Of a stretch of DNA of 24,962 nt, positions 3,080 to 17,768 are shown piece by piece. The stretch lies in the IMG/VR virus record IMGVR_UViG_3300033149_002667, positions 1 to 24,962 of that record. One strand, 5' to 3'. Below the pieces are notes generated by a model. It searched no databases and was not told where the DNA came from. It saw nothing but the letters and a program-made list of their open reading frames with translations. Source of the stretch: a virus. The translations under genes were made by a program, and so were the position numbers. The number at the start of each line of letters is the position of its first letter. Position 1 is the stretch's first letter.

Positions 3080-3754
3080 TTATTGGGCGGGTATCGCATT
3101 TAGCACTTCCTTAAACCTCTCCAATGCCTTGCTATCCATTTCCAGCAGCTTCGCTAGTATGTCTTCCACTAATTCCTGTCGCTCTTTGTCGTTCCCTCGG
3201 TTGAACATCTTGGCTGCTAATGCTGCTGGCCGAACGTGGGTGTAGATTTGGGTGGTAGCCACAGAGGAATGTCCAAGCAGGGTTTGAACTTCTCGCAGGT
3301 TATAGCCTTCCTCCAGCAATTCGGTTGCGAAGCTGTGGCGTAGCACGTGAGGCGATATCTGCGTCGGATCAAGCCCTGCTCGCTTGGCATACTTCTTAAT
3401 CATTCGGCGCAGATGCGAGGTGAGCAACTGCGTGCCGAGGCGCGTACAGAAAAACCATTTGCTCTCTGCTGGTCGCTTCTCGTTCCAGGCTTGCAGCCAG
3501 CCTGCCAGTTCTGGGCCGATAGGGACGGTTCTAGACGCACCGCGCTTGGACTTGCGTATATCCAGTCGGTAATCGGCTATCTTCACGTCAGCGGGCCGCA
3601 AATTGACGATCTCACAGGCGCGTAGCCCTGCACGGTACATCGTTTCCAGTATTGCACGGTCTTTGATGCCATTGGTGTAGCGCAGGTTAGGCTGCTTGAG
3701 CAACAGTTCGGCTTCGTCGCGATTGATTACTTTGGGCAAGCGATTAGGCATCAT
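3080..3754 (-). CDS. Tyrosine recombinase (integrase), catalytic domain only
   Basis: 224 residues, XerC/D-like. All catalytic residues of the family can be placed: Arg45 in G-L-R-A-C-E, a Lys at 68 or 70 in the beta-hairpin, His136-x-x-Arg139 in H-V-L-R-H, His162 in L-L-G-H-S-S, and Tyr171 in I-Y-T-H-V. It should catalyse strand exchange between phage and host attachment sites or resolve dimers. XerC/D proteins are about 300 residues and begin with a helical core-binding (SAM-like) domain, which is absent here: the catalytic domain begins almost at once. The start overlaps the end of the upstream gene by 11 bases. The C-terminal 40 residues form an extra charged helix (about 185-224). Confidence 0.9.
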   Translation of the reverse strand: MMPNRLPKVINRDEAELLLKQPNLRYTNGIKDRAILETMYRAGLRACEIVNLRPADVKIADYRLDIRKSKRGASRTVPIGPELAGWLQAWNEKRPAESKWFFCTRLGTQLLTSHLRRMIKKYAKRAGLDPTQISPHVLRHSFATELLEEGYNLREVQTLLGHSSVATTQIYTHVRPAALAAKMFNRGNDKERQELVEDILAKLLEMDSKALERFKEVLNAIPAQ

Positions 3755-4259: not shown

Positions 4260-4465
4260 TCAACCCACTTCTCTAAAGTAGTTTTCGGAGGATGTGCTAA
4301 TGCCTCAAGTGCTTCTGCCGCAATCACAAGAGCACAAGCACCCTCTATTGGATCGCCGACCCATAGCCCACACTCGTCTCGTAGGCAGCGCGGTTGGCTT
4401 TCGGTTTCCAGGCGAGCATCAACAGCGCGGCGGATGCGGTTCATAAATGGGCAAAGTTTAGTCAT
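4256..4465 (-). CDS. Small hypothetical protein
   Basis: 69 residues. ATG 4465 follows AAAAGGATAACCGTA. It has Cys at 5, 27, 32 and 44, an Arg-rich N-terminal helix (FMNRIRRAVDARLE) and a C-terminal helix (ACALVIAAEALEALAH). The start overlaps the upstream S4-domain gene by 8 bases. No family is recognised. Confidence 0.55.
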   Translation of the reverse strand: MTKLCPFMNRIRRAVDARLETESQPRCLRDECGLWVGDPIEGACALVIAAEALEALAHPPKTTLEKWVE

Positions 4466-4778
4466 TACGGTTATCCTTTTCTATTAGTGCAGCCCATCGT
4501 TTCCCAACTCGCAGTATGTCACCGTCAGATAAGTCAATTCGCGTCATCTCGTCTTCCACTATCTGTTCATTGAACTTGACTCCACCTTGGCGGATAACTC
4601 GTCGCGCCTCGCTTTTGCTCTTTGCGAAGCCTGCTATTATAATCAAGTCCACAATCCACATTTGCTGACCAGCGAGTTTTAGGCGGCGAGTTGCGGATTG
4701 GCGTTTAGTCTTCACCGTTTCTGGATCATCGAAGTGTCTGCCGAACATAGCAAAGAATGCGTCTGCGTCTTTCGTCAT
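4458..4778 (-). CDS. Orphan S4 RNA-binding domain, TyrRS-like
   Basis: 106 residues from ATG 4778, whose ATGA overlaps the stop of the small upstream gene. Residues 43-100 form an S4 domain of the kind at the C-terminus of bacterial tyrosyl-tRNA synthetase: G-F-A-K-S-K-S-E-A-R-R-V-I-R-Q-G-G-V, then L-S-D-G-D-I-L-R-V-G-K-R. In that enzyme the domain grips tRNA outside the anticodon. The synthetase catalytic domain is absent, and residues 1-40 are charged helix. It most likely binds structured RNA. The phage's own tRNA- and tmRNA-like elements at 17695 and 15552, or the host ribosome or tRNA, are candidate partners (inference). A TTG start at 4820 is possible but lacks a ribosome binding site. 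Confidence 0.8.
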   Translation of the reverse strand: MTKDADAFFAMFGRHFDDPETVKTKRQSATRRLKLAGQQMWIVDLIIIAGFAKSKSEARRVIRQGGVKFNEQIVEDEMTRIDLSDGDILRVGKRWAALIEKDNRND

Positions 4779-4858
4779 CGTTTCATTCCAAACATCTCTG
4801 TGATGAGGTTCATCAGCCAATCGGTGATGGCTTCAGCAAGTTGGTCAATAAGTCTCAT
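4775..4858 (-). CDS. 27-residue amphipathic peptide
   Basis: ATG 4858 follows AAGGAGACTACCGA. The product (MRLIDQLAEAITDWLMNLIT, then EMFGMKR) is one amphipathic to hydrophobic helix. Both ends overlap neighbours by 4 bases (ATGA), locking it into the chain of coupled genes. It could associate with the membrane, or serve mainly to couple translation to the S4 gene. Confidence 0.5.
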   Translation of the reverse strand: MRLIDQLAEAITDWLMNLITEMFGMKR

Positions 4859-5127
4859 TCGGTAGTCTCCTTGTCTTTATTCGTGTGCTGCTCTTCTATC
4901 AGTGTTGCAGCGGTTACTTGTGGGCCAAGGCTATTGGCTTGCCTCCGCTGCCAATCGTGCTTCGCTCTGAGCGTTTGTAGCCAACCCTCCGCTCTTCTGT
5001 CCGCTTGCGCTGCTGCTTTCATCAGTGCCATAACCCAGACCATAGCCACCAGGTAACCGAGAATGACCAGAATTGTGGTGAGGCTAATACTGTGGAGTAG
5101 AGATTGCAGCCAAGTTACAGGGTTCAT
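4855..5127 (-). CDS. Single-span membrane protein
   Basis: 90 residues from ATG 5127, chosen for GGAGGAAGCGAA upstream; the longer open frame to 5274 is a shadow. A transmembrane helix at about residues 13-35 (LTTILVILGYLVAMVWVMAL) is followed by a charged cytoplasmic-type tail. Size and topology would fit a holin or exclusion-type protein, but nothing specific supports either. Confidence 0.6.
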   Translation of the reverse strand: MNPVTWLQSLLHSISLTTILVILGYLVAMVWVMALMKAAAQADRRAEGWLQTLRAKHDWQRRQANSLGPQVTAATLIEEQHTNKDKETTE

Positions 5128-5474
5128 TTCGCTTCCTCCTTGACTGGTACGCCTTCCAGTCGCCTGATTGCGTTCGTGACCGCATCGCTCTCCTGGATGT
5201 TGAGCGGGAAGTGGTCGCGAAGGTACACCAGAACGCTGATGGCGTTCTGCTCGCTCTCTGTTATCGTTGCCCATTCTTGGGAGAGGCCGCCGGCCGCGTA
5301 GTTGAGCAACTGTACCGCATTGCCGATATGGTCAAGCAGCAGCGTGCGTAGGCCCGATTGTCGGCCTGGCGATAAACCCTCCTCTCGCGCGGATTTGGGC
5401 AACTCTTTGGCTAGGTCAGCGGCCTTCTCCAGCATTGCCACAGCGGCCTTAATCCTGCTGGTTTCTGCTTCCAT
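5124..5474 (-). CDS. Helical hypothetical protein
   Basis: 116 residues from ATG 5474, behind AGGGAGGCAACACAG. It is mostly amphipathic helix (IKAAVAMLEKAADLAKELPK; LLLDHIGNAVQLLNYAAGGL; AISVLVYLRDHF), with no Cys or membrane segment. It overlaps the downstream gene by 4 bases. Function unknown. Confidence 0.6.
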   Translation of the reverse strand: MEAETSRIKAAVAMLEKAADLAKELPKSAREEGLSPGRQSGLRTLLLDHIGNAVQLLNYAAGGLSQEWATITESEQNAISVLVYLRDHFPLNIQESDAVTNAIRRLEGVPVKEEAK

Positions 5475-5493
5475 CTGTGTTGCCTCCCTTGTG

Positions 5494-5859
5494 CTATTCG
5501 CGATACCAATCATATATTTCAATCTCTCGTTCGGGGCCATTTACCAAGTCAAATAGTGGCCGCCCCAACACAAGGTCCCCGTGCTTATCCTGAAAGGCCA
5601 GTAACTCCTCGAGTGTCTCAAACTCAATTACCCAGTAATCCCTGGGCCCCAAGTCCCGCGCTATACCACAGTCCCCGCTTTTTTCTTCGCGATGGTTTTC
5701 GCCGCTTGCGAAGAACTCGGCACCCCACTTAGCTTTTCGCGCGGCAGCCAGGGATTTTACCGTTCGCCTATCAACGTATTTATAACTTTCCTTCCTTGCA
5801 CCATCACAAGGAGAAACATTGCTTCCCCGTTTGCTTGTTCGGCTGATTATGAACTTCAT
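5494..5859 (-). CDS. Hypothetical protein
   Basis: 121 residues from ATG 5859, with GAAGGAGG about 9 bases upstream; a GTG directly before it is an alternative. It has a basic N-terminal half and a C-terminal half of the form W-V-I-E-F-E-T-L-E-E-L-L-A-F, which looks like a small alpha/beta fold. No family is recognised. Confidence 0.6.
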   Translation of the reverse strand: MKFIISRTSKRGSNVSPCDGARKESYKYVDRRTVKSLAAARKAKWGAEFFASGENHREEKSGDCGIARDLGPRDYWVIEFETLEELLAFQDKHGDLVLGRPLFDLVNGPEREIEIYDWYRE

Positions 5860-5876
5860 CACTAATTGCCTCCTTC

Positions 5877-6110
5877 TCAGTATTCGCTATCGTATCTCTT
5901 GTCAGGGTCTGGCCCCAAGTCCACATAATCTCGTCCGCCGCATTCAGGGCATAGGTACCATAGTCTCGGATAGCCTGTCGGCGCACCGTATTGCTCAACA
6001 GTATTAAAGGCCATCGCAACATCGCACTGCTCGCAGACAACCTCGTGGGCCTCGGCAATCTCGTCCCACAGCGGCTCGTGGGCAATCGGGTTATCTATCT
6101 GCTGGTTCAT
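5877..6110 (-). CDS. Zinc-ribbon hypothetical protein
   Basis: 77 residues from ATG 6110, behind AGGGAGCCGACA. C-E-Q-C and C-P-E-C-G-G-R lie about 25 residues apart and form a probable four-cysteine zinc ribbon. The segments around it are acidic. It overlaps the upstream gene by 20 bases. An overlapping frame at 5804-6085 is judged a shadow because it breaks this motif. Confidence 0.6.
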   Translation of the reverse strand: MNQQIDNPIAHEPLWDEIAEAHEVVCEQCDVAMAFNTVEQYGAPTGYPRLWYLCPECGGRDYVDLGPDPDKRYDSEY

Positions 6111-6342
6111 TGTCGGCTCCCTGCTGCTGTTCACTGCCAGCTTTGCGGTAAGCCCTTTGCCCCTGGAGGTAGTCATTAGCCAGCCCTCCTGGTAAGACTC
6201 TGAGACCTTCGTCTATACCCTTTTCTGCATCCAGCCAGCCCATAGACCAGGCCCAGGCTGCGCCGCTGCCAGGCATAATGTGGTCGGGCAATGTGGGTGC
6301 ATTTTCAGCCTCTATTTCCCAAGGATTGGTGCTCGCCATCAT
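6091..6342 (-). CDS. Small hypothetical protein
   Basis: 83 residues. It starts at ATGATG (6342 or 6339) behind AAGGAGAATAG. It is acidic, with a central G-A-A-W-A-W-S-M-G-W-L-D-A-E-K-G motif and a Q/E-rich tail. The W-x-x-G-W pattern is common in small phage proteins of unknown role. No function is assigned. Confidence 0.55.
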   Translation of the reverse strand: MMASTNPWEIEAENAPTLPDHIMPGSGAAWAWSMGWLDAEKGIDEGLRVLPGGLANDYLQGQRAYRKAGSEQQQGADNEPADR

Positions 6343-6372
6343 CTATTCTCCTTATACTCGCTCGCTGGTTCA

Positions 6373-6552
6373 TTATCGGTCTCTCTTCACTATGCTGAAT
6401 ATTTCCTGAACATCTCGCTGCGTAGCCCAGTATTTGGTTTCTTCAGATAACGCTAGCCACTGGCTTGCCGCTTCACGCTCCTCTGGCGGGGATGTGGTAT
6501 TCATAATACGGCGTGCCTGCATATCTCTAAGTTCGATGATTTCTTCTATCAT
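6373..6552 (-). CDS. 59-residue helical protein
   Basis: ATG 6552 follows AAGGGAAGGCAACAAG. The product is MIEEIIELRDMQARRIMNTT, then a proline turn and a second charged helix containing W-L-A-L-S-E-E-T-K-Y-W. An acidic-basic helical hairpin is likely. Function unknown. Confidence 0.55.
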   Translation of the reverse strand: MIEEIIELRDMQARRIMNTTSPPEEREAASQWLALSEETKYWATQRDVQEIFSIVKRDR

Positions 6553-6567
6553 CTTGTTGCCTTCCCT

Positions 6568-6645
6568 TCATGGTCTAATCTTGACATCTGGGCTACTGCG
6601 ATATTGACTAAATCGCTTGCTAGTATTCGGAATGCCTCCTCTCAT
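6568..6645 (-). CDS. Possible 25-residue peptide
   Basis: ATG 6645 follows a weak GGGTAGG. The product begins MRGGIPNTSKRFSQYRSSPD and is basic. It fills an otherwise empty 130-base gap, but the only support is an intact short frame. Confidence 0.2.
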   Translation of the reverse strand: MRGGIPNTSKRFSQYRSSPDVKIRP

Positions 6646-6685
6646 TCTTAGCCTACCCTGCTTGTCGCACTCCTAAACATCTGCG

Positions 6686-6910
6686 CTACTTATCTTCTTG
6701 CTGGAATTGATTTGCCCAGTCCTGAATTGCGTTGCTTATATGTTCTTGTATAGCAAGTTTCAGTAGACGCCATTCGGTGGGTTGAATATCTCTTACTCCG
6801 TATCTCTCACAAAGTATTCTGGCAAGTCCCCTTATTGGAGGGTATATTGTGTCTATAACCATATTCAGTGATTGCTCATACTTGGTCTGCCAGATTTTGT
6901 CTGAAAGCAT
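6686..6910 (-). CDS. Helical hypothetical protein
   Basis: 74 residues. ATG 6910 follows a modest AAAGAGAGACA. Three helices are likely (SLNMVIDTIYPPIRGLARIL; RLLKLAIQEHISNAIQDWAN). No family is recognised. Confidence 0.55.
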   Translation of the reverse strand: MLSDKIWQTKYEQSLNMVIDTIYPPIRGLARILCERYGVRDIQPTEWRLLKLAIQEHISNAIQDWANQFQQEDK

Positions 6911-6969
6911 TGTATTGTCTCTCTTTCTTACTTGGTAGGTAATCTTGTTCTATTCGCCTTGTCTTTATT

Positions 6970-7158
6970 CTAAACATCCGCGCTACTGCTACGCGGCGGC
7001 ACAAACATACTTGCCGTCCACAAGTCGTGGTCAAGATTTGGTTTGAACTTGCGTTGCGCTCGCTCAAACGCCGCCCGATCCTTTGGGTGCATTCGAGCCT
7101 TTAGTTTAGCTAGTTCTCTCAGCTTCTTTGTTTGTCTTTGGGCTTCTTGCTTAGCCAT
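6970..7158 (-). CDS. Small basic hypothetical protein
   Basis: 62 residues. ATG 7158 has AAGGAGG at a long distance (13 bases). It is very basic and coiled-coil-like at the start (MAKQEAQRQTKKLRELAKLK), then D-R-A-A-F-E-R-A-Q-R-K-F-K. It may bind nucleic acid, judged from charge. It overlaps the upstream gene by 40 bases in another frame. Confidence 0.45.
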   Translation of the reverse strand: MAKQEAQRQTKKLRELAKLKARMHPKDRAAFERAQRKFKPNLDHDLWTASMFVPPRSSSADV

Positions 7159-7307
7159 TCGGGATAGTTTTCCTCCTTGTCATTCGGTACATAGGCTTTG
7201 GTAATTCGGTACTCATTCGGTACGCTCAAAACTTTTCGCCCGCCTATCGGCCCACTTACACGCGAGTGACTTACCTCAATTTTGAATAAGGTTTGCCTTA
7301 ACTTCAC
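7119..7307 (-). CDS. Small basic hypothetical protein
   Basis: 62 residues from GTG 7307. An internal GTG preceding S-G-P-I-G-G, behind TTGAGGTAAG, is an alternative start. The tail is basic (WLSKKPKDKQRS). It lies directly downstream of parB. Start and reality are less certain than for its neighbours. Confidence 0.4.
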   Translation of the reverse strand: MKLRQTLFKIEVSHSRVSGPIGGRKVLSVPNEYRITKAYVPNDKEENYPEWLSKKPKDKQRS

Positions 7308-11722: not shown

Positions 11723-11751
11723 TTGACATTTTAGGCGTTACGGTTTATAAT
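11723..11751 (+). promoter_or_regulatory. Rightward consensus promoter for the packaging/head operon
   Basis: TTGACA (11723-11728), 17-base spacer, TATAAT (11746-11751). GTTACG occurs on both sides of the -10 (11737-11742 and 11756-11761), a 19-base repeat that could be an operator. The predicted start site (about 11757-11759) is only 5-7 bases before ATG 11764. Confidence 0.85.
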
Positions 11752-11763
11752 GAGTGTTACGAT

Positions 11764-12414
11764 ATGAACCAGACAGATGATGAGAACAAGGTAGTACGAC
11801 GGGCATACCCACTGCGGACGGTGCGAGCGGCGATGTGTTTGTATGCAGCTGGGGGAGAGAGTGGTCTGCACGACAATGATATAGAGAAAATGCTGGGGAT
11901 AGAGACGGAGGGGATAGTGAGGGTATGGCGAGATCGGGGGCGCGGGGGGAATTGGGAAGCGAAGCGAGCGTGGGTGGAAAACGAAGCTGACGATGAGGAG
12001 GAGGATCGGCCGTTTGAGCTAAGTGATCGCAGGGAATTACTGAAGAGCAGTGTAGAGGTAGCGAGGATGTTATTGATGAAATGCAAGGATGCACTGGAGG
12101 GGAAGAAGAATGTTGAGTTTGTAAGCGGGGAAAAGCCGACGGCGCGAAATGTAATAGAAGGTCTGCAGAGGGCGCATGTGATCATCGAGAAGGATACAAC
12201 ACAGTTACGGGAGATAGAGGAAAGCGTCAGGGACGAGCGGCAAGTTGAGGAGGAACGAGTACGACGGATACTACGGCGAGTGCAACAGGCATTAGCAGAA
12301 AGCGAATTGAAATTAACGCCTGAGCAGTTAGAGGTATTGAGGAAGGCGTTTCCAGGAGTGCCGCTGCTATGGATAAGCGAGGTGCTGCCACAGGGGATGG
12401 CGGCGGAGGTTTAA
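11764..12414 (+). CDS. Putative small terminase subunit
   Basis: 216 residues. It is the first gene of the head operon, and a small terminase subunit recognises the phage packaging site in this position. The N-terminal part (about 12-60) contains AAMCLYAAGGESGLHDNDIE then M-L-G-I and V-R-V-W-R-D-R-G-R-G-G-N-W-E, which is HTH-like and resembles the small-terminase style of K-R-A-W lists. The C-terminal two thirds are long charged helices (coiled coil, 75-190), suitable for oligomer formation. No ribosome binding site precedes the ATG, and the promoter would give a leaderless or near-leaderless mRNA. The assignment rests on position and fold style only. Confidence 0.55.
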   Translation: MNQTDDENKVVRRAYPLRTVRAAMCLYAAGGESGLHDNDIEKMLGIETEGIVRVWRDRGRGGNWEAKRAWVENEADDEEEDRPFELSDRRELLKSSVEVARMLLMKCKDALEGKKNVEFVSGEKPTARNVIEGLQRAHVIIEKDTTQLREIEESVRDERQVEEERVRRILRRVQQALAESELKLTPEQLEVLRKAFPGVPLLWISEVLPQGMAAEV

Positions 12415-12609: not shown

Positions 12610-13671
12610 GTGAAAAAAATAGATATTGAAAAGTATCGCGGTAAGCGTAGCCTGCTGAAAAAGGAGCTTGGTGACAAGGGTTTGGTTGCACTGCACGCTA
12701 AGTGCCACGGGTCGCCGACACTGGCGAAGGAGTTTTTGGGATATAAGAGTACTGCGATAATTCGTCGTCAGTGGAAACGTCTTGGCTTGAGCAATCGTCT
12801 CCAAGGATCGCGGCTTGACCTTGACCCGCTGCTGTCAGGCGAGGAACCACAAACAGTTGCCGAGATACGCGAGATGTATTTGACTGCTACGGCAAGAGTG
12901 GACACTGCTCCTACCTATAATTGGGAAGTAGCTCGCGATACCGAATATGCACACCTTATATTCTTAGGCGATTTGCATTATGGCTCTCCCGATATGGATT
13001 ATCGGCGGTTTCTGGCTCTTTGTGATTGGATAGCTGAGCACCCTGATGTGCGCTGGATAGGAATGGGTGACTACTGGGATTTGGTAACAATGCGGAGTCC
13101 TGGAATACACCGCCAGGCGCTTACTTACGACCAAGCAACTGATCTCTTGCGTGTCGACACCAATCCCATAATGCCTCAGTGTATAATGCTACATCGCGGC
13201 AATCACGATGAGCGTATTATGCGAGGGTTGCAAATAGGCCACGACCCAGTCAAGAGATGGGCAGAAGAATATGGCGTTCTTTATGGTGGATATAGTGGCT
13301 TTGTCAGAGTTACCGTAACCGATGGACGGAAGAGTCGGACGCAAGAATACATAGGATTTCAGCACCACGGCTTTGGCGGCGGGGCAACCTGGGGATATGT
13401 GCTAAACTCAATGGAGCGATTGGCAGCGCAGAATGACTGTGATTGGGTAGCTATGGGGCACCGTCACCAGCGCGCCAGCGTGGAAACATCAAAGGCAAGA
13501 GTGGTAGATGGAGTTGTGGAGGTTTATGGCGTGCCACTTATTAGTACAGGCAGCTTTCAGAAGCATCTTAAAGACAGTTATGCTAGCAAAAAGGGAATGC
13601 GGCCAGCGTCACTTGGCGCAGCGACAGCACATCTGTACCTAGACAGACATTCGGTTCATGGAAGGGCTTAA
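12610..13671 (+). CDS. HTH-fused calcineurin-like metallophosphoesterase
   Basis: 353 residues from GTG 12610 (weak ribosome binding site, start 4 bases after the previous stop). Residues 1-65 look like a helix-turn-helix module (SPTLAKEFLGYKSTAIIRRQ then W-K-R-L-G-L-S). The catalytic domain carries the full metal-binding set: G-D-L-H-Y-G (120-125), G-M-G-D-Y-W-D (151-157), R-G-N-H-D-E (196-201), Q-H-H-G (251-254) and G-H-R-H (283-286). It should be a two-metal phosphoesterase acting on DNA, RNA or a small phosphoester; the DNA-binding-like N-terminus favours a nucleic acid. It lies between the terminase genes, where phages often carry nucleases, but it is not an HNH enzyme. Confidence 0.8.
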   Translation: MKKIDIEKYRGKRSLLKKELGDKGLVALHAKCHGSPTLAKEFLGYKSTAIIRRQWKRLGLSNRLQGSRLDLDPLLSGEEPQTVAEIREMYLTATARVDTAPTYNWEVARDTEYAHLIFLGDLHYGSPDMDYRRFLALCDWIAEHPDVRWIGMGDYWDLVTMRSPGIHRQALTYDQATDLLRVDTNPIMPQCIMLHRGNHDERIMRGLQIGHDPVKRWAEEYGVLYGGYSGFVRVTVTDGRKSRTQEYIGFQHHGFGGGATWGYVLNSMERLAAQNDCDWVAMGHRHQRASVETSKARVVDGVVEVYGVPLISTGSFQKHLKDSYASKKGMRPASLGAATAHLYLDRHSVHGRA

Positions 13672-13679
13672 GAAGCACA

Positions 13680-13934
13680 ATGCACTGGACGGCATTTGTT
13701 GGTTGGATAGGTGTGGTGATTGGCATTTGCGTAAACCTACCGCAGGCTTACCGCATCTGGAAAACAAAGAGCAGCAAGGATGTAGCTGTCTGGACTTACC
13801 GACTGTTGCTATTTACTGTTGTCTGCTATTTAATCCGTGCTATAGCAATCGGCGAGTGGATATTTATTGTGTCTAACTCAATTGCTATCTTTGTGACAAC
13901 TGCTGTTCTATTGCTGAAGAGGAGATATGGATGA
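13680..13934 (+). CDS. SemiSWEET-type sugar transporter (PQ-loop)
   Basis: 84 residues. SemiSWEETs are three-helix proteins of about 85-100 residues that dimerise to let sugars cross membranes. Three hydrophobic helices can be seen (about 3-25, 38-58, 60-78). The first holds V-N-L-P-Q-A-Y-R-I-W-K-T-K-S, the PQ-loop signature followed by the usual K-T-K-S-S-K-D-V turn. Helix 3 contains S-N-S-I-A-I, matching the family's conserved Asn. The stop overlaps the next ATG (ATGA). A sugar carrier in a phage head operon is unexpected; with the kinase at 14717 and the cupin at 15669 it suggests sugar-related cargo. Confidence 0.8.
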   Translation: MHWTAFVGWIGVVIGICVNLPQAYRIWKTKSSKDVAVWTYRLLLFTVVCYLIRAIAIGEWIFIVSNSIAIFVTTAVLLLKRRYG

Positions 13935-14236
13935 AGGGCTTCATGGCCGACATGATAGGGATGGCTGAGAATGCACGCTTACCTAAGCTGATGATAGCAG
14001 CAATGATAGCTGCGTATAATGAAGGGCGACTTATCAATGAGAACACTGAAGCAGATTGGCATCGGCCAGGCTTCAACTTCCGCAGCGAAATATGGAAGGA
14101 ACTTATTGATGCTGCAAATTATGTGGTAGAAGGCAGACGACAAGGACAGCTTGACGAGTTTGAGTCCCACACAATATTGCAATCTCTTAAATGTGTGGCA
14201 AACAAACTTCTGAGAGGAGGTGATACAGATGACTAA
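13931..14236 (+). CDS. Hypothetical protein
   Basis: 101 residues. ATG 13931 overlaps the transporter stop and follows GAGGAGATATGG. It is helical, with NEGRLINENTEADWHRPGFN in the middle, and soluble. Its end overlaps the next start by 8 bases. Function unknown; it is tightly coupled on both sides. Confidence 0.6.
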   Translation: MKGFMADMIGMAENARLPKLMIAAMIAAYNEGRLINENTEADWHRPGFNFRSEIWKELIDAANYVVEGRRQGQLDEFESHTILQSLKCVANKLLRGGDTDD

Positions 14237-14606
14237 ATGGATATTTGTTTTGATGATGCTCGTATTGGTGGCATCACCCACGTTTGCCGACGACGTCTTC
14301 GCTGAGATTGGCGACGCTGGTACCGTTGTAGCACAGAATGTGGAGTTATCACTGCTTGGTGGAACTATTGGTTGGGGTGCAGGGGCATATTGGCCGCTAT
14401 ACGAAGTCAAGCCAATTGGAGCAACAGTCGGCCCATTCATTGGATTTGGCAGTCAAATGGTGGCTGGTGGTGTGGGTGCTAGGTTGGCTGTTGAGATTCC
14501 TATGCTGGAAAACTACATTGATTTTTTGGCAGCTGGTGGGGCTTATAAGCATGACAGCTTGACCTTTGAGCTATGGGTTGGCAAGACAATTCCGCTAAAG
14601 AAGTAA
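14229..14606 (+). CDS. Secreted, probably outer-membrane-type protein
   Basis: 125 residues from ATG 14229, behind a near-perfect GAGGAGGTGAT. A signal peptide is clear (MTKWIFVLMMLVLVASPTFA, cleavage before DD). The mature part alternates small and hydrophobic residues (GGTIGWGAGAYWPL, IGATVGPFIGFG, VAGGVGARLAVEI, LTFELWVGKTIPLKK) in short strands ending with an aromatic or basic residue, as in small beta barrels. It may modify the surface of the infected cell or lysogen. This supports a diderm host but does not prove it. Confidence 0.6.
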   Translation: MTKWIFVLMMLVLVASPTFADDVFAEIGDAGTVVAQNVELSLLGGTIGWGAGAYWPLYEVKPIGATVGPFIGFGSQMVAGGVGARLAVEIPMLENYIDFLAAGGAYKHDSLTFELWVGKTIPLKK

Positions 14607-14615
14607 TTTGATGAT

Positions 14616-14690
14616 GCAGGGAGGCTGCCAAATAAAAACAAATCTAGCATAGCAGGATTGGACTCTCCTTCGGGGCGGTGGCCTCCCTGC
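14616..14690 (+). ncRNA. 75-nt element closed by a 10-bp stem
   Basis: GCAGGGAGGC (14616-14625) pairs perfectly with GCCTCCCTGC (14681-14690). The 55-base interior holds a small CC-TTCG-GG hairpin (14667-14674). The run TTATTTATTT follows. The loop is too long for an ordinary terminator. It might still be a terminator or attenuator ahead of the kinase gene, or a discrete RNA. It is not a tRNA: there are no arms and no CCA. Confidence 0.4.
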
Positions 14691-14716
14691 TTATTTATTT
14701 GTTATTGGAGGTTAAC

Positions 14717-15565
14717 TTGAACATTTACGTTGTTGGCGATGTGATGTTAGATGTAGAGATGCAGGTGCAGCCTCGCGAGAATTATGAGGGAGCAAGTATT
14801 TGTGTAACGGGAACTAGATGCACTTACTACCCTGGCGGCGCTGCAAATGTGGCGGCTTTGTTGCAAAGATTAGGTTGTGATGTGTCTCTGTTTGGATTAG
14901 TGGGAGCAGATTGGGCAGCAGCGGAATTATACAATTTACTACGAGGCATAAGGATATACTGTCTGGCCTTGCTACCAACCACTACAGTGAAAACCCGAAT
15001 CTATGATGATGGGATGATGATACGAGTGGATTGCGAAGATCATAAGTCTGATAATTGGGCAGTGGAGCGATGTCTGCAAGAGATTGAACATATTCGTCCC
15101 GATTGTGTGGTCTTCTCTGATTATGGCAAGGGTATATTCGGCAGCCATGTGAGGGATACAGTCCAGCGTATTATCAGGCATGAGCCTCCAATCCCGACTG
15201 TGGTAGATCCAAAACCTTGTGAGCACAATGATATTTATGCTGACATCTGGAATGGGTGTACTGTGGCTGTTCCCAACAATAGAGAAATGGACGAGATGGC
15301 TCTTGATGTCCAAAACTTGATTGTTACGCATGGTGCGAATGGCGTTGTAGCTACAGGCAATTTTGACACAACTGCTATTCCTTGTCGCGAGGTTAGTAAT
15401 CCGCAAGTGGTCGGTGCTGGAGATGCTTTTACAGCAGGGATAGCTTCGTCGTTATCTCAGGACGATGATATAGCGAAGGCTGCACGGTTTGCGGTTGAGT
15501 TTGCTACAGATTATGTGTCGCAGCCACGAGTCGAGGCATATAATAAAAGATGGGGGCGAGAATAG
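14717..15565 (+). CDS. PfkB-family sugar kinase, HldE kinase-domain-like
   Basis: 282 residues from TTG 14717, chosen because TTGGAGG lies 5 bases upstream; the frame is open to 14678 but without such a site. The PfkB signatures are present: V-V-G-D-V-M-L-D (5-12), Y-P-G-G-A-A-N-V-A-A (38-47) and V-G-A-G-D-A-F-T-A-G (232-241) with the catalytic Asp236. The D-V-M-L-D and P-G-G-A-A-N-V-A forms, plus F-S-D-Y-G-K-G and V-D-P-K, are those of D-glycero-beta-D-manno-heptose-7-phosphate kinase (RfaE/HldE N-terminal domain), which makes a precursor of LPS heptose. It is slightly shorter than that domain (about 310-320). The last codons overlap the tmRNA-like element. Confidence 0.85.
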   Translation: MNIYVVGDVMLDVEMQVQPRENYEGASICVTGTRCTYYPGGAANVAALLQRLGCDVSLFGLVGADWAAAELYNLLRGIRIYCLALLPTTTVKTRIYDDGMMIRVDCEDHKSDNWAVERCLQEIEHIRPDCVVFSDYGKGIFGSHVRDTVQRIIRHEPPIPTVVDPKPCEHNDIYADIWNGCTVAVPNNREMDEMALDVQNLIVTHGANGVVATGNFDTTAIPCREVSNPQVVGAGDAFTAGIASSLSQDDDIAKAARFAVEFATDYVSQPRVEAYNKRWGRE

Positions 15566-15634
15566 TTTCGACCGCAGTTAAATCCCGAAAGGGCACTCTG
15601 TGGCACGCGGGGGCAGAACCCGCCGCCTCCACCA
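15552..15634 (+). ncRNA. Mini tmRNA-like RNA (tRNA-like domain only)
   Basis: GGGGGCG (15552-15558) pairs with CGCCTCC (15624-15630), giving a 7-bp acceptor. Pair 3-70 is G-U, then come A73 and encoded CCA (15632-15634). G3-U70 with A73 is the alanine identity of tRNA-Ala and tmRNA. After the acceptor comes AGAATAGTTTCGAC, the same length as the tmRNA D-loop segment and carrying its TTTCGAC signature. The T-stem GCGGG/CCCGC (15607-15611, 15619-15623) is the one seen in many tmRNAs, but the 7-base T-loop is GGCAGAA rather than TTCRANN. Between them, only a 6-bp stem (CCGCAG 15572-15577 with CTGTGG 15598-15603) and a CCC-GAAA-GGG hairpin (15584-15593) replace the roughly 270 bases holding the tag frame and pseudoknots. 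It overlaps the kinase gene by 14 bases. Confidence 0.65.
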
Positions 15635-15668
15635 ATTGGCAACAAAGAATGAACAGTAGGAGGCTATA

Positions 15669-16046
15669 ATGAACTGGGAAGAGTTGGGTTTTAAGCATGT
15701 AGAAAAGACGTGGGGTAGTGAAGACTGGCTAGTAAATACTGACGCGTATTGTGCTAAGGTATTAATGGTGAATCAGTATTGTGGGGGCAGCTACCATCAC
15801 CATACACACAAGGATGAAACATTTTTATGTTTAAGCGGATGTGCTCAGTTGCTTCTTGAACACGATGGAAAACATATGGAAGTTCACGAGTTGAGTACGG
15901 GTGGCTCGGTACGTATTCCTCCTGGTACTGCTCATTTACTAATTGGGATTTCAGAAGAGCCGTGCGTTTTGCTGGAAATTTCAACACACCATGACGACGA
16001 AGATGTAGTGCGTCATTTTCGCATAGACGGTGCAGCAGATGGTTAA
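15669..16046 (+). CDS. Cupin protein, sugar-phosphate isomerase-like
   Basis: 125 residues, ATG 15669 behind AGTAGGAGGCTATA. It is a single-domain cupin: motif 1 is G-G-S-Y-H-H-H-T-H-K-D-E-T-F-L-C-L-S-G and motif 2 is I-P-P-G-T-A-H-L-L, so metal ligands His, His, Glu and His are all present. The opening V-E-K-T-W-G-S-E-D-W-L and the ending S-T-H-H-D-D-E-D-V-V-R resemble small cupins of sugar-nucleotide and LPS clusters (mannose-6-phosphate isomerase or lyxose isomerase type), which often lie beside HldE kinases. Together with the upstream kinase it suggests a short sugar-modifying path; the substrate is unknown. Confidence 0.8.
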   Translation: MNWEELGFKHVEKTWGSEDWLVNTDAYCAKVLMVNQYCGGSYHHHTHKDETFLCLSGCAQLLLEHDGKHMEVHELSTGGSVRIPPGTAHLLIGISEEPCVLLEISTHHDDEDVVRHFRIDGAADG

Positions 16047-16054
16047 TACTGATT

Positions 16055-17560
16055 ATGGCTACTAGCACAACATTCTCCGAAACTAGGCGATACACCGAGG
16101 ATGATGTAATCCTTGATCCTGTTGCTTGGTGCGCAGTAGCTAAACCTTGCATTGAAAGTAAGGTGCAAGGCTTAATCCCATTTGAGCCATATGACTTCCA
16201 GAAACAGATTATGCGAGCAGTTGCGGCAGGGAAAGCATATATCATTGATAAGTCTAGCCAGATTGGGGTTTCAACAGCAGTAGTAATAGGATATGCACAT
16301 CAGCTTCTTTACCGAGCCAAGGCGACAGGCATACCATTGCATTGTCATTTTATTGCTAACTCAGAAGAAGTTGCTGTGGAGCGGCTTTTGAAGATTGCTA
16401 AGGTTGCTCTTAGTACAGCGGAATTATCTGCAAGTCAGCAGAAGACTATTGATGGCATCAATCCGAAAACCAAAAACAACGAGATTCGCTATTACACTCC
16501 CCTTGCTCACAATTATATTCGCGCTCACCCCTCGCGAGAAACAGCAGGTCGTAGCTTCGACGGTAATGCGGCACTAATGGAGGAAGTTGCTTATATGCCG
16601 TATGCTGAAGGTGTTTGGCGATCAATGGCTCGCACCCTTGATGATATGGCGAATGCCCCTATATTTTTGGTGAGCACTTATAATGGCGATGGAGATTTTT
16701 TCTGTGAGTGTGTTGACAATCACAAGGAGTTAGGGCTTACTCATTTGCCCATTGACTGGCGGGCGCATCCTGATCGTTGGGGTGATGATAATGGTAAGAC
16801 TTGGAAGGAGCGATCTCAGAAGAAGTTCTTAGGGAGAATCGCAGAGTGGGAAGAGGAGCACGAACTGAAACGAATAAAGAGTGGAGAGCAGGCAATTGAC
16901 GTACGAATAGTAGAAGATTTTGCAACTGATATAGAGTTTTTAGGCCATAGCCCTATTGCTTCTCACCGTTATAGCAAAGGGGTAGATATTGCTGGTGCTG
17001 GTCGAGATAATACGGTGCATACCGTTATTGACCTTCACGTACGACCTCCTCAGGTTGTTTTTCAGCGTAGCTATGCTCGTCAGTCAACGACGGACAAGGT
17101 AGCAGCCATTGAAGCACTAGACAAGAGATGGCCTGGTTCATTATTTATTGATGGCACTAAAGATAGTGCAATACCTGCATTGGTAGATGCTCGACAAAAG
17201 ACAGCAGTAAACTTCACGGCTGGGCATCGAGCAACTGAGCGAGTAGATCGTGTGGAAGGACTGCAATGGCGCAATGTTCCTCGCGGTGAGATGTTGAGTT
17301 GGTTGATAGCTAATCTGGAAAGCGGTGCTCTTATTGCTCATCTGGAGGAGTTCCCTGAATTACGAGAGGCCTTAAGAACAGCTCGTACAGGTGTGGGCGA
17401 AAAGAAGCAGGGAAGAAATGTTGATTTCTTGGATTCGTTGATGTTGGCGAATTTGGCCTTGACAAAGCGAGTTCGAAGAGGATATGATAGGGGCGAAAAG
17501 TTGGTTGGGGGAGTACCCTCTTCTGATAAGCTGAAGAAGTTACTAGGAACTAGATGGTAA
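16055..17560 (+). CDS. Large terminase subunit (TerL)
   Basis: 501 residues. TerL is the ATP-driven motor and nuclease that packages and cuts phage DNA. Visible parts: adenine-binding F-E-P-Y-D-F-Q-K-Q-I (43-52), Walker A variant D-K-S-S-Q-I-G-V-S-T (65-74), Walker B A-A-L-M-E-E-V-A-Y (172-180) with catalytic Glu, coupling motif F-L-V-S-T-Y-N-G (204-211). The RNase H-like nuclease has acidic residues at Asp311 (G-V-D-I-A-G-A-G-R-D), Asp366 (F-I-D-G-T-K-D) and Asp457/460 (N-V-D-F-L-D-S). K-S-x-Q-I-G-x-S-T is the Mu gp28-like form. Length is normal. It lies directly upstream of the portal region, separated by a small basic gene and a tRNA-like element. Confidence 0.9.
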   Translation: MATSTTFSETRRYTEDDVILDPVAWCAVAKPCIESKVQGLIPFEPYDFQKQIMRAVAAGKAYIIDKSSQIGVSTAVVIGYAHQLLYRAKATGIPLHCHFIANSEEVAVERLLKIAKVALSTAELSASQQKTIDGINPKTKNNEIRYYTPLAHNYIRAHPSRETAGRSFDGNAALMEEVAYMPYAEGVWRSMARTLDDMANAPIFLVSTYNGDGDFFCECVDNHKELGLTHLPIDWRAHPDRWGDDNGKTWKERSQKKFLGRIAEWEEEHELKRIKSGEQAIDVRIVEDFATDIEFLGHSPIASHRYSKGVDIAGAGRDNTVHTVIDLHVRPPQVVFQRSYARQSTTDKVAAIEALDKRWPGSLFIDGTKDSAIPALVDARQKTAVNFTAGHRATERVDRVEGLQWRNVPRGEMLSWLIANLESGALIAHLEEFPELREALRTARTGVGEKKQGRNVDFLDSLMLANLALTKRVRRGYDRGEKLVGGVPSSDKLKKLLGTRW

Positions 17561-17694: not shown

Positions 17695-17768
17695 TGCGGG
17701 TTGGGCCAGAAGTAAGCCGCCAGCATCATAAGCTGGAGACCTCGGTGCAATTCCGAGACCCGCTACCA
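17695..17768 (+). tRNA. Divergent tRNA with CAU anticodon, initiator-like features
   Basis: Acceptor TGCGGGT/ACCCGCT (17695-17701, 17758-17764) with six pairs and a T1-T72 mismatch, then A73 and encoded CCA (17766-17768). D-arm GGC/GCC with loop CAGAAGTAA, which lacks the G18-G19 pair. Anticodon arm CCAGC/GCTGG with loop ATCATAA: U33, anticodon CAU at 17727-17729. Variable loop AGAC. T-arm CTCGG/CCGAG with loop TGCAATT (G in place of U55). A 1-72 mismatch and a purine11-pyrimidine24 pair (G11-C24) are bacterial initiator traits, but the three G-C pairs of the initiator anticodon stem are missing. It may be a Met or lysidine-type Ile tRNA, or a non-standard effector. Confidence 0.7.

Follow-up and report, generated by a model that had tools for sequence, protein, structure and literature searches.

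The interval between the terminase genes

The DNA analysed here (the window) is the whole of IMG/VR virus record IMGVR_UViG_3300033149_002667, a stretch of 24,962 bases that is itself a phage fragment. By family and profile searches, the minus strand encodes an integrase (3080-3754) and a ParB-like protein, and the plus strand a Mu-type head module. This study concerns the interval between the genes for the putative small (TerS) and the large (TerL) terminase subunits, where all genes lie closely spaced on the plus strand. They include genes for a divergent SemiSWEET homologue of 84 amino acids (13680..13934), a 282-residue PfkB kinase of the HldE type (14717..15565) and a 125-residue cupin (15669..16046). 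Between kinase and cupin stands an 83-nt plus-strand RNA element (15552..15634), which shares its first 14 nt with the end of the kinase gene and has the make-up of a transfer-messenger RNA (tmRNA) reduced to its tRNA-like domain. An initial reading of the sequence alone had proposed a sugar cassette at this place. The SemiSWEET, kinase, cupin and secreted protein that it listed are all present; the RNA and a metallophosphoesterase gene (12610-13671) had been overlooked.

Four contigs with TerL proteins 82-85% identical overall (L002, L003, L004 and L005) served as relatives. L002 and L003 are near-identical, so that the set represents three independent lineages. The whole TerS-TerL interval is visible only in L004, and parts of it in the other three.

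A tmRNA lacking the mRNA-like domain

The RNA element occupies the spacer before the cupin gene in the window and in all four relatives, with a length of 81-83 nt (window 15552-15634; L002 2900-2982; L003 1971-2053; L004 7473-7555; L005 2285-2365). Each copy starts with GGGGG-Y-GAGAA..GTTTCGA and ends with a T arm plus CGCCTCCACCA. In the window copy the acceptor stem is paired at 7/7 positions and the T-stem at 5/5; the G3-U70 pair, A73 and CCA are all present. The L002 and L004 elements score 72.8 and 65.1 bits with the Rfam tmRNA model RF00023 (cut-off 47), with about 300 model positions missing and 8-14 nt in their place. There is neither a tag reading frame nor any pseudoknot, for which 81-83 nt leaves no room. 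A profile built from elements of other phages, to the exclusion of this lineage, recovered the window element at 1.5e-5 and that of L002 at 4.4e-17. Matches of a covariance model trained on the lineage's own elements (R1) are not independent evidence in this respect. Taken together, motifs and pairing make it near certain that the element is a tmRNA without its mRNA-like domain.

Two observations weigh against this identification. The window RNA taken alone falls below the Rfam cut-off and matches only the 3' part of the alpha_tmRNA model; moreover, the window and L005 copies have a GGCAG T-loop instead of TTCRA. GGCAG also occurs in the alpha-tmRNA model, and this loop is perhaps what keeps the window score below the cut-off. 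ARAGORN reported the element in none of the five sequences, so that standard annotation may overlook it.

Matches to alpha_tmRNA and permuted-tmRNA models downstream of the element were rejected as spurious, as they pair with the ribosome-binding site of the cupin gene. Antisense open reading frames (ORFs) run across the 3' end of the RNA in the window (15504-15698, minus strand) and in L002 (2855-3106, minus strand), with translations of the type '...VEAAG.APA/EPAS...'; they are probably not genuine genes but by-products of the tRNA-like sequence.

Distribution of the RNA element in viral contigs

IMG/VR was scanned with a pattern in which the 5' element, the T-loop and CCA had to lie close together. 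This yielded 65 stretches, among them 45 distinct elements with a canonical T-loop in viral contigs, where about three matches would be expected by chance in a collection assumed to hold roughly 60 Gb. Features outside the pattern were consistently found in the distinct elements: G3-U70 and a fully paired T-stem (5/5) in 45/45, and a complete acceptor stem (7/7) in 43/45. With a median pairwise identity of 64%, the set shows compensatory changes at 11 of the 12 modelled pairs. In 398 Pseudomonadota genomes there was no match, and BLAST searches with two of the RNA elements against named phages returned only 3' pieces of tmRNA.

ssrA is often an integration site of phages and islands (PMC11915505, PMC10865867), and the window does encode an integrase. 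The RNA could then be a mere phage attachment site (attP), or a relic of integration into the host ssrA gene, that collected accessory genes by recombination. An attP core, however, would hold nothing but the 3' half; the present element retains both halves, and they pair with each other. The covariation argues in the same direction, as do the genes flanking the element in other phages, which encode mainly exonuclease, terminase and HNH proteins and few integrases. In the window, the integrase gene is 12 kb distant from the RNA. We thus regard an attachment-site origin as quite unlikely.

What the RNA does is suggested by precedent. The 2025 tmRNA database holds 97,179 sequences, 9 of which are of standard order and lack a coding sequence (CDS), and one such RNA is reported in phage DS6A (PMC11915505). 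Strong inhibition of tmRNA is described for a molecule similar to that of DS6A, perhaps through titration of SmpB (PMC4131195, citing Mao 2009; also PMC11915505).

The HldE-type kinase

The kinase scores 88 bits with the PfkB family, and its best named model is rfaE_dom_I (TIGR02198; 117 bits, 8.5e-34). It contains the HldE/HldA motifs GGAANVA, K.R...R.D.E, SDY.KG, VDPK, PN..E and GAGD. All signature positions that we checked are kept, including two lysines that are lost in many PfkB relatives from Chloroflexota. A TTG at 14717 is more likely to be the start codon than a GTG at 14678: it has GGAGGT just upstream and gives a protein whose length matches the relatives. A strong hairpin (GCAGGGAGGC...GCCTCCCTGC, z -2.6) is predicted at 14607-14716, directly upstream of this start.

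Kinases about 50% identical are encoded in L002, L003 and L005, and none in L004. In a phylogenetic tree, the window protein forms a clade of its own with those of L002 and L005 (support 100/99), outside the clade of cyanophage kinases. Two points speak against the assignment: the score of 117 bits is far from the equivalog cut-off of TIGR02198 (345), and the clade sits on a long branch whose deeper position is uncertain. The corresponding kinase of cyanophage P-SSM2 scores 148 with the same model. Altogether, the complete active-site signature supports a kinase of the heptose-phosphate type, as the sequence-only reading had supposed.

The cupin as a probable sugar isomerase

The cupin matches Cupin_2 at 36.6 bits, above the cut-off, and is encoded in all four relatives directly before TerL, with one small ORF intervening in L002 and L003. 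Its metal ligands are H43, H45, E50 and H89, and its isomerase residues K30, K48, E103 and D110. A profile of 25 such cupins found D-lyxose isomerase of B. subtilis as its best PDB match (2y0o, 5.6e-10) and the Thermofilum lyxose isomerase at 2.3e-8. In the latter, sugar and metal are contacted by K62, H75, H77, K86, E88, H143, E156 and D163, and substitution of the equivalents of K86, E156 or D163 abolishes activity (PMC8378251). All eight positions are matched in the window cupin. Across 91 phage-type cupins, the first seven are identical in every sequence, and the eighth, D163, is always D or E. A structural model (pLDDT 91.5) has as fold neighbours the CapF cupin, lyxose isomerase, KdgF and phosphomannose isomerase, but also oxalate decarboxylase and storage proteins. 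The gene is under purifying selection (dN 0.14-0.39 versus dS 1.3-2.3).

The family could instead comprise dioxygenases, as PHROG 7851 is labelled 'cysteine dioxygenase', or epimerases acting on nucleotide sugars, as its neighbours in fold and sequence include CapF and WxcM/QdtA-type cupins. Either activity seems unlikely to us: the isomerase contacts, among them the lysine two residues ahead of the metal glutamate, do not vary, and the best profile match is a lyxose isomerase. An aldose-ketose isomerase is the best reading of residues and model alike, in line with the isomerase-type cupin initially proposed.

Pairing of kinase and cupin, and the GmhA step

Viral loci with a cupin of the window type were collected by means of an alignment that included P-SSM2, so that the set leans towards cyanophage-like clusters. 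A kinase was found within 5 kb of the cupin in 66 of the 79 loci, most of which are known cyanophage heptose and lipopolysaccharide (LPS) clusters. Within the stretches fetched, a HAD protein was present in 68 loci, a nucleotidyltransferase in 61 and an epimerase in 56. P-SSM2 (L006) has the order nucleotidyltransferase, kinase, HAD protein, cupin and HldD-like epimerase. Two of its gene labels look wrong when matched against profiles and residues: the 'phosphoheptose isomerase' (6599-6940) matches HAD models, and the 'cysteine dioxygenase' (6924-7277) is a cupin of the isomerase type. Cupin matches in genome contigs fell mostly in short contigs from marine metagenome-assembled genomes that carry the phage-type cluster and are probably viral.

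SIS-fold GmhA (TIGR00441) was found in none of 22 viral records with a window-type cupin, including the complete record of P-SSM2; control genomes gave a positive signal in the same search. The cupin is likely to be an aldose-ketose isomerase that takes the place of GmhA, since all eight contact residues are kept and GmhA is absent from 22/22 records. One consideration runs counter to this proposal: GmhA and other enzymes of the pathway may be supplied by the host, which makes absence from phage records weak evidence.

In the 25-kb window record, itself a fragment, searches detected no nucleotidyltransferase, HAD phosphatase, epimerase or glycosyltransferase. ADP-heptose signalling and capsid glycosylation, two of the roles first suggested for these genes, thus find no support here.

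One could also see kinase, cupin, SemiSWEET and RNA as unrelated morons, gained separately and sharing nothing but a tolerant slot. Indeed, where the kinase stands in the window, L004 has a DNA methyltransferase-like ORF with an intein-like insert (4681-7005). The gene content of the interval also differs in L002, L003 and L005, and only in this lineage is the RNA linked with a cupin closely related to that of the window. On the other hand, kinase and cupin are within 5 kb of each other in the majority of viral cupin loci, and this in a different clade, and the purifying selection on the cupin noted above does not favour a chance gathering. We consider wholly unrelated acquisitions somewhat unlikely. 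These data indicate instead that kinase and cupin are a real functional pair, whose substrate we infer.

A divergent SemiSWEET homologue

Homology of the 84-residue protein to SemiSWEETs is firm at the level of sequence. It scores 34.4 bits with the Pfam PQ-loop family (cut-off 22), and its six sequence matches in PDB are all SemiSWEETs, far above chance; phmmer gave 1.6e-6 to 9kax and 4.9e-6 to 4rng, with an ungapped alignment over residues 7-84. It falls below the curated cut-offs of MtN3_slv (21.2 against 23.7), which control SemiSWEETs pass, and of NCBIfam SemiSWEET_2 (44.6 against 80). The structural model (pLDDT 73) has three predicted transmembrane helices (H2-28, H35-57, H60-83). The top 14 Foldseek matches are all SemiSWEETs, the best with an E-value of only 0.012, and VIA-align did not rank SemiSWEET above other helical bundles for this model.

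The protein retains G6, the PQ motif, D32 and N64. Four positions are replaced (LbSemiSWEET numbering): S34 by A, W48 by Y, Y51 by R and G52 by A. These are residues of the substrate pocket and gate of SemiSWEETs (PMC5972207), and in 62 reference sequences S34 is kept in 62 and each of the other three in 61. Because these four near-invariant functional residues are replaced, the role of an ordinary sugar carrier is not supported and appears doubtful, even if the family assignment of the sequence-only reading stands.

That reading had also called a phage SemiSWEET unusual, which is borne out. The window protein had no match among 50,697 phage records. SemiSWEETs were found in three other IMG/VR contigs, so that viral SemiSWEETs are rare, and scans with the single protein and with a broader profile detected no viral relatives of the window type.

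In the scheme first proposed, the three proteins would form one unit in which the SemiSWEET imports a sugar, the kinase phosphorylates it and the cupin isomerises it. The genes do share strand and close spacing, and SemiSWEETs do occur within sugar-synthesis and nucleotide-sugar clusters (PMC5972207). A Dehalococcoidia contig (L167, 1-4589) has consecutive genes for an SDR protein, a NeuB-like protein, a HAD phosphatase, a methyltransferase, a cupin and a canonical SemiSWEET. There the SemiSWEET directly follows a cupin of the window type in a nonulosonate-like cluster. Such an arrangement makes an association of SemiSWEET and cupin not absurd; it is no evidence of sugar transport by the window protein. 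Against a single unit, the SemiSWEET is firmly absent from the interval of L004 and, provisionally, also from what is visible of L002, L003 and L005. The sugar genes between the terminase genes are real, but they are not one conserved cassette. The replaced pocket and gate residues argue the same way. Furthermore, the substrates of HldE-type kinases are sugar phosphates, and SemiSWEETs are not known to carry these. A three-protein import pathway is highly improbable in our judgment.

Neighbouring genes

The upstream border of the interval is a plus-strand gene (11764..12414) with a helix-turn-helix-like product, preceded by a perfect match to a sigma-70-like promoter (11723-11751) ahead of the gene set. 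Its identity as small terminase is weakly supported, by a weak HTH_28 match (0.028) and a 62% identical counterpart at the same place in L004. The downstream border is clear: TerL (16055..17560, plus strand) matches PHROG 2. Of the two terminase borders originally assumed, only this one is secure.

The remaining genes of the interval are also on the plus strand. A calcineurin-like metallophosphoesterase, or SbcD-type exonuclease (12610..13671; Pfam PF00149, PHROG 7339), was not seen in the relatives. A protein of 101 amino acids (13931..14236), whose gene has a 4-nt overlap with the end of the SemiSWEET gene, stop codon included, and a small secreted protein with a signal-like N terminus (14220..14606) gave no family match in Pfam and PHROG searches. 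The latter has a 66% identical relative in L004 and a weak one in L002.

Further downstream, a tRNA-Met(CAT) gene (17695..17768, plus strand; ARAGORN; Rfam tRNA 49.3 bits) lies between the terminase and portal genes in the window and in the four relatives. In the relatives it is followed by tRNA-Pro(TGG) (both within L002 5543-5700, L003 4614-4771, L004 9619-9776 and L005 4544-4702). The minus strand at 4458-4820 encodes a small protein with an S4 domain, similar to the C-terminal part of tyrosyl-tRNA synthetase.

Proposed roles and relation to known systems

We envisage the TerS-TerL interval as a slot for accessory genes that would act at different points of infection. Kinase and cupin may supply two steps of the host nucleotide-heptose pathway. 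The cupin, as a metal-dependent aldose-ketose isomerase, would replace GmhA, the usual sedoheptulose-7-phosphate isomerase, in phages that carry this cupin type, and the kinase would phosphorylate a heptose (or similar) 7-phosphate at C1. In this direction of the pathway, which we infer, the most likely outcome would be a change in the glycan on the surface of infected or lysogenic cells. The 83-nt RNA could fold like the alanine-accepting half of tmRNA and bind SmpB, and the resulting titration would block host trans-translation. The SemiSWEET homologue would be a separate acquisition and probably no normal sugar carrier. For this explanation as a whole, we put the chance slightly above even.

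A broader proposal is that tagless tmRNAs are a widespread phage family of 72-85-nt decoys that shut down trans-translation during infection, found here beside a heptose module in which a cupin replaces GmhA; to this we give an even chance. Should the RNA work like the DS6A-type molecule, phages would commonly disarm a near-universal bacterial quality control by RNA decoy. Should the cupin be a phosphoheptose isomerase, a gap in phage heptose synthesis would be closed, and many cyanophage 'cysteine dioxygenase' and 'phosphoheptose isomerase' labels would be wrong.

Cyanophage LPS clusters with PfkB kinases, cupin isomerases and nucleotidyltransferases have already been described (PMC7824862), as have cyanophage heptose genes (PMC7378029). 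The heptose/LPS cluster of P-SSM2 (PSSM2_309-313), predicted to alter the host surface polysaccharide (PMC7824862, PMC7378029), shares with the window an adjoining HldE-type kinase and the same cupin family (cupins 36% identical). The window, in contrast, has only kinase and cupin, set within a packaging operon; the phage looks temperate and has a Mu-type portal, and its record is without the nucleotidyltransferase, HAD protein and epimerase. The pairing is thus already known in kind; novelty lies in the proposed replacement of GmhA. With the cupin D-lyxose/D-mannose isomerases (2y0o, 7nzo) the window cupin shares the metal site, all sugar contacts and the fold; it is shorter, about 27% identical, and belongs to a family found in phages with heptose enzymes. 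The SemiSWEET homologue resembles 4RNG, 4QNC and 9KAX in length, in its three helices, in the PQ motif and in the equivalents of G6, D32 and N64. It differs from them in lacking the pocket Trp and the gate Tyr, Gly and Ser, and in scoring below the MtN3_slv and NCBIfam cut-offs.

The closest likeness of the RNA is the tmRNA of Mycobacterium phage DS6A, likewise cut down to the tRNA-like domain (PMC4131195, PMC11915505). Compared with DS6A, considered here by its description only, the present family is spread over many viral contigs, comprises about 45 distinct sequences and has a short capped P2-like stem. CDS-less tmRNAs of mitochondria and Mallomonadaceae plastids also lack the tag reading frame (PMC11915505), but the window RNA is phage-borne and of standard order, whereas the mitochondrial ones are usually permuted. 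In conclusion, the tagless form is not unprecedented; what is new is its commonness in phage contigs and its location beside a kinase and a cupin gene.

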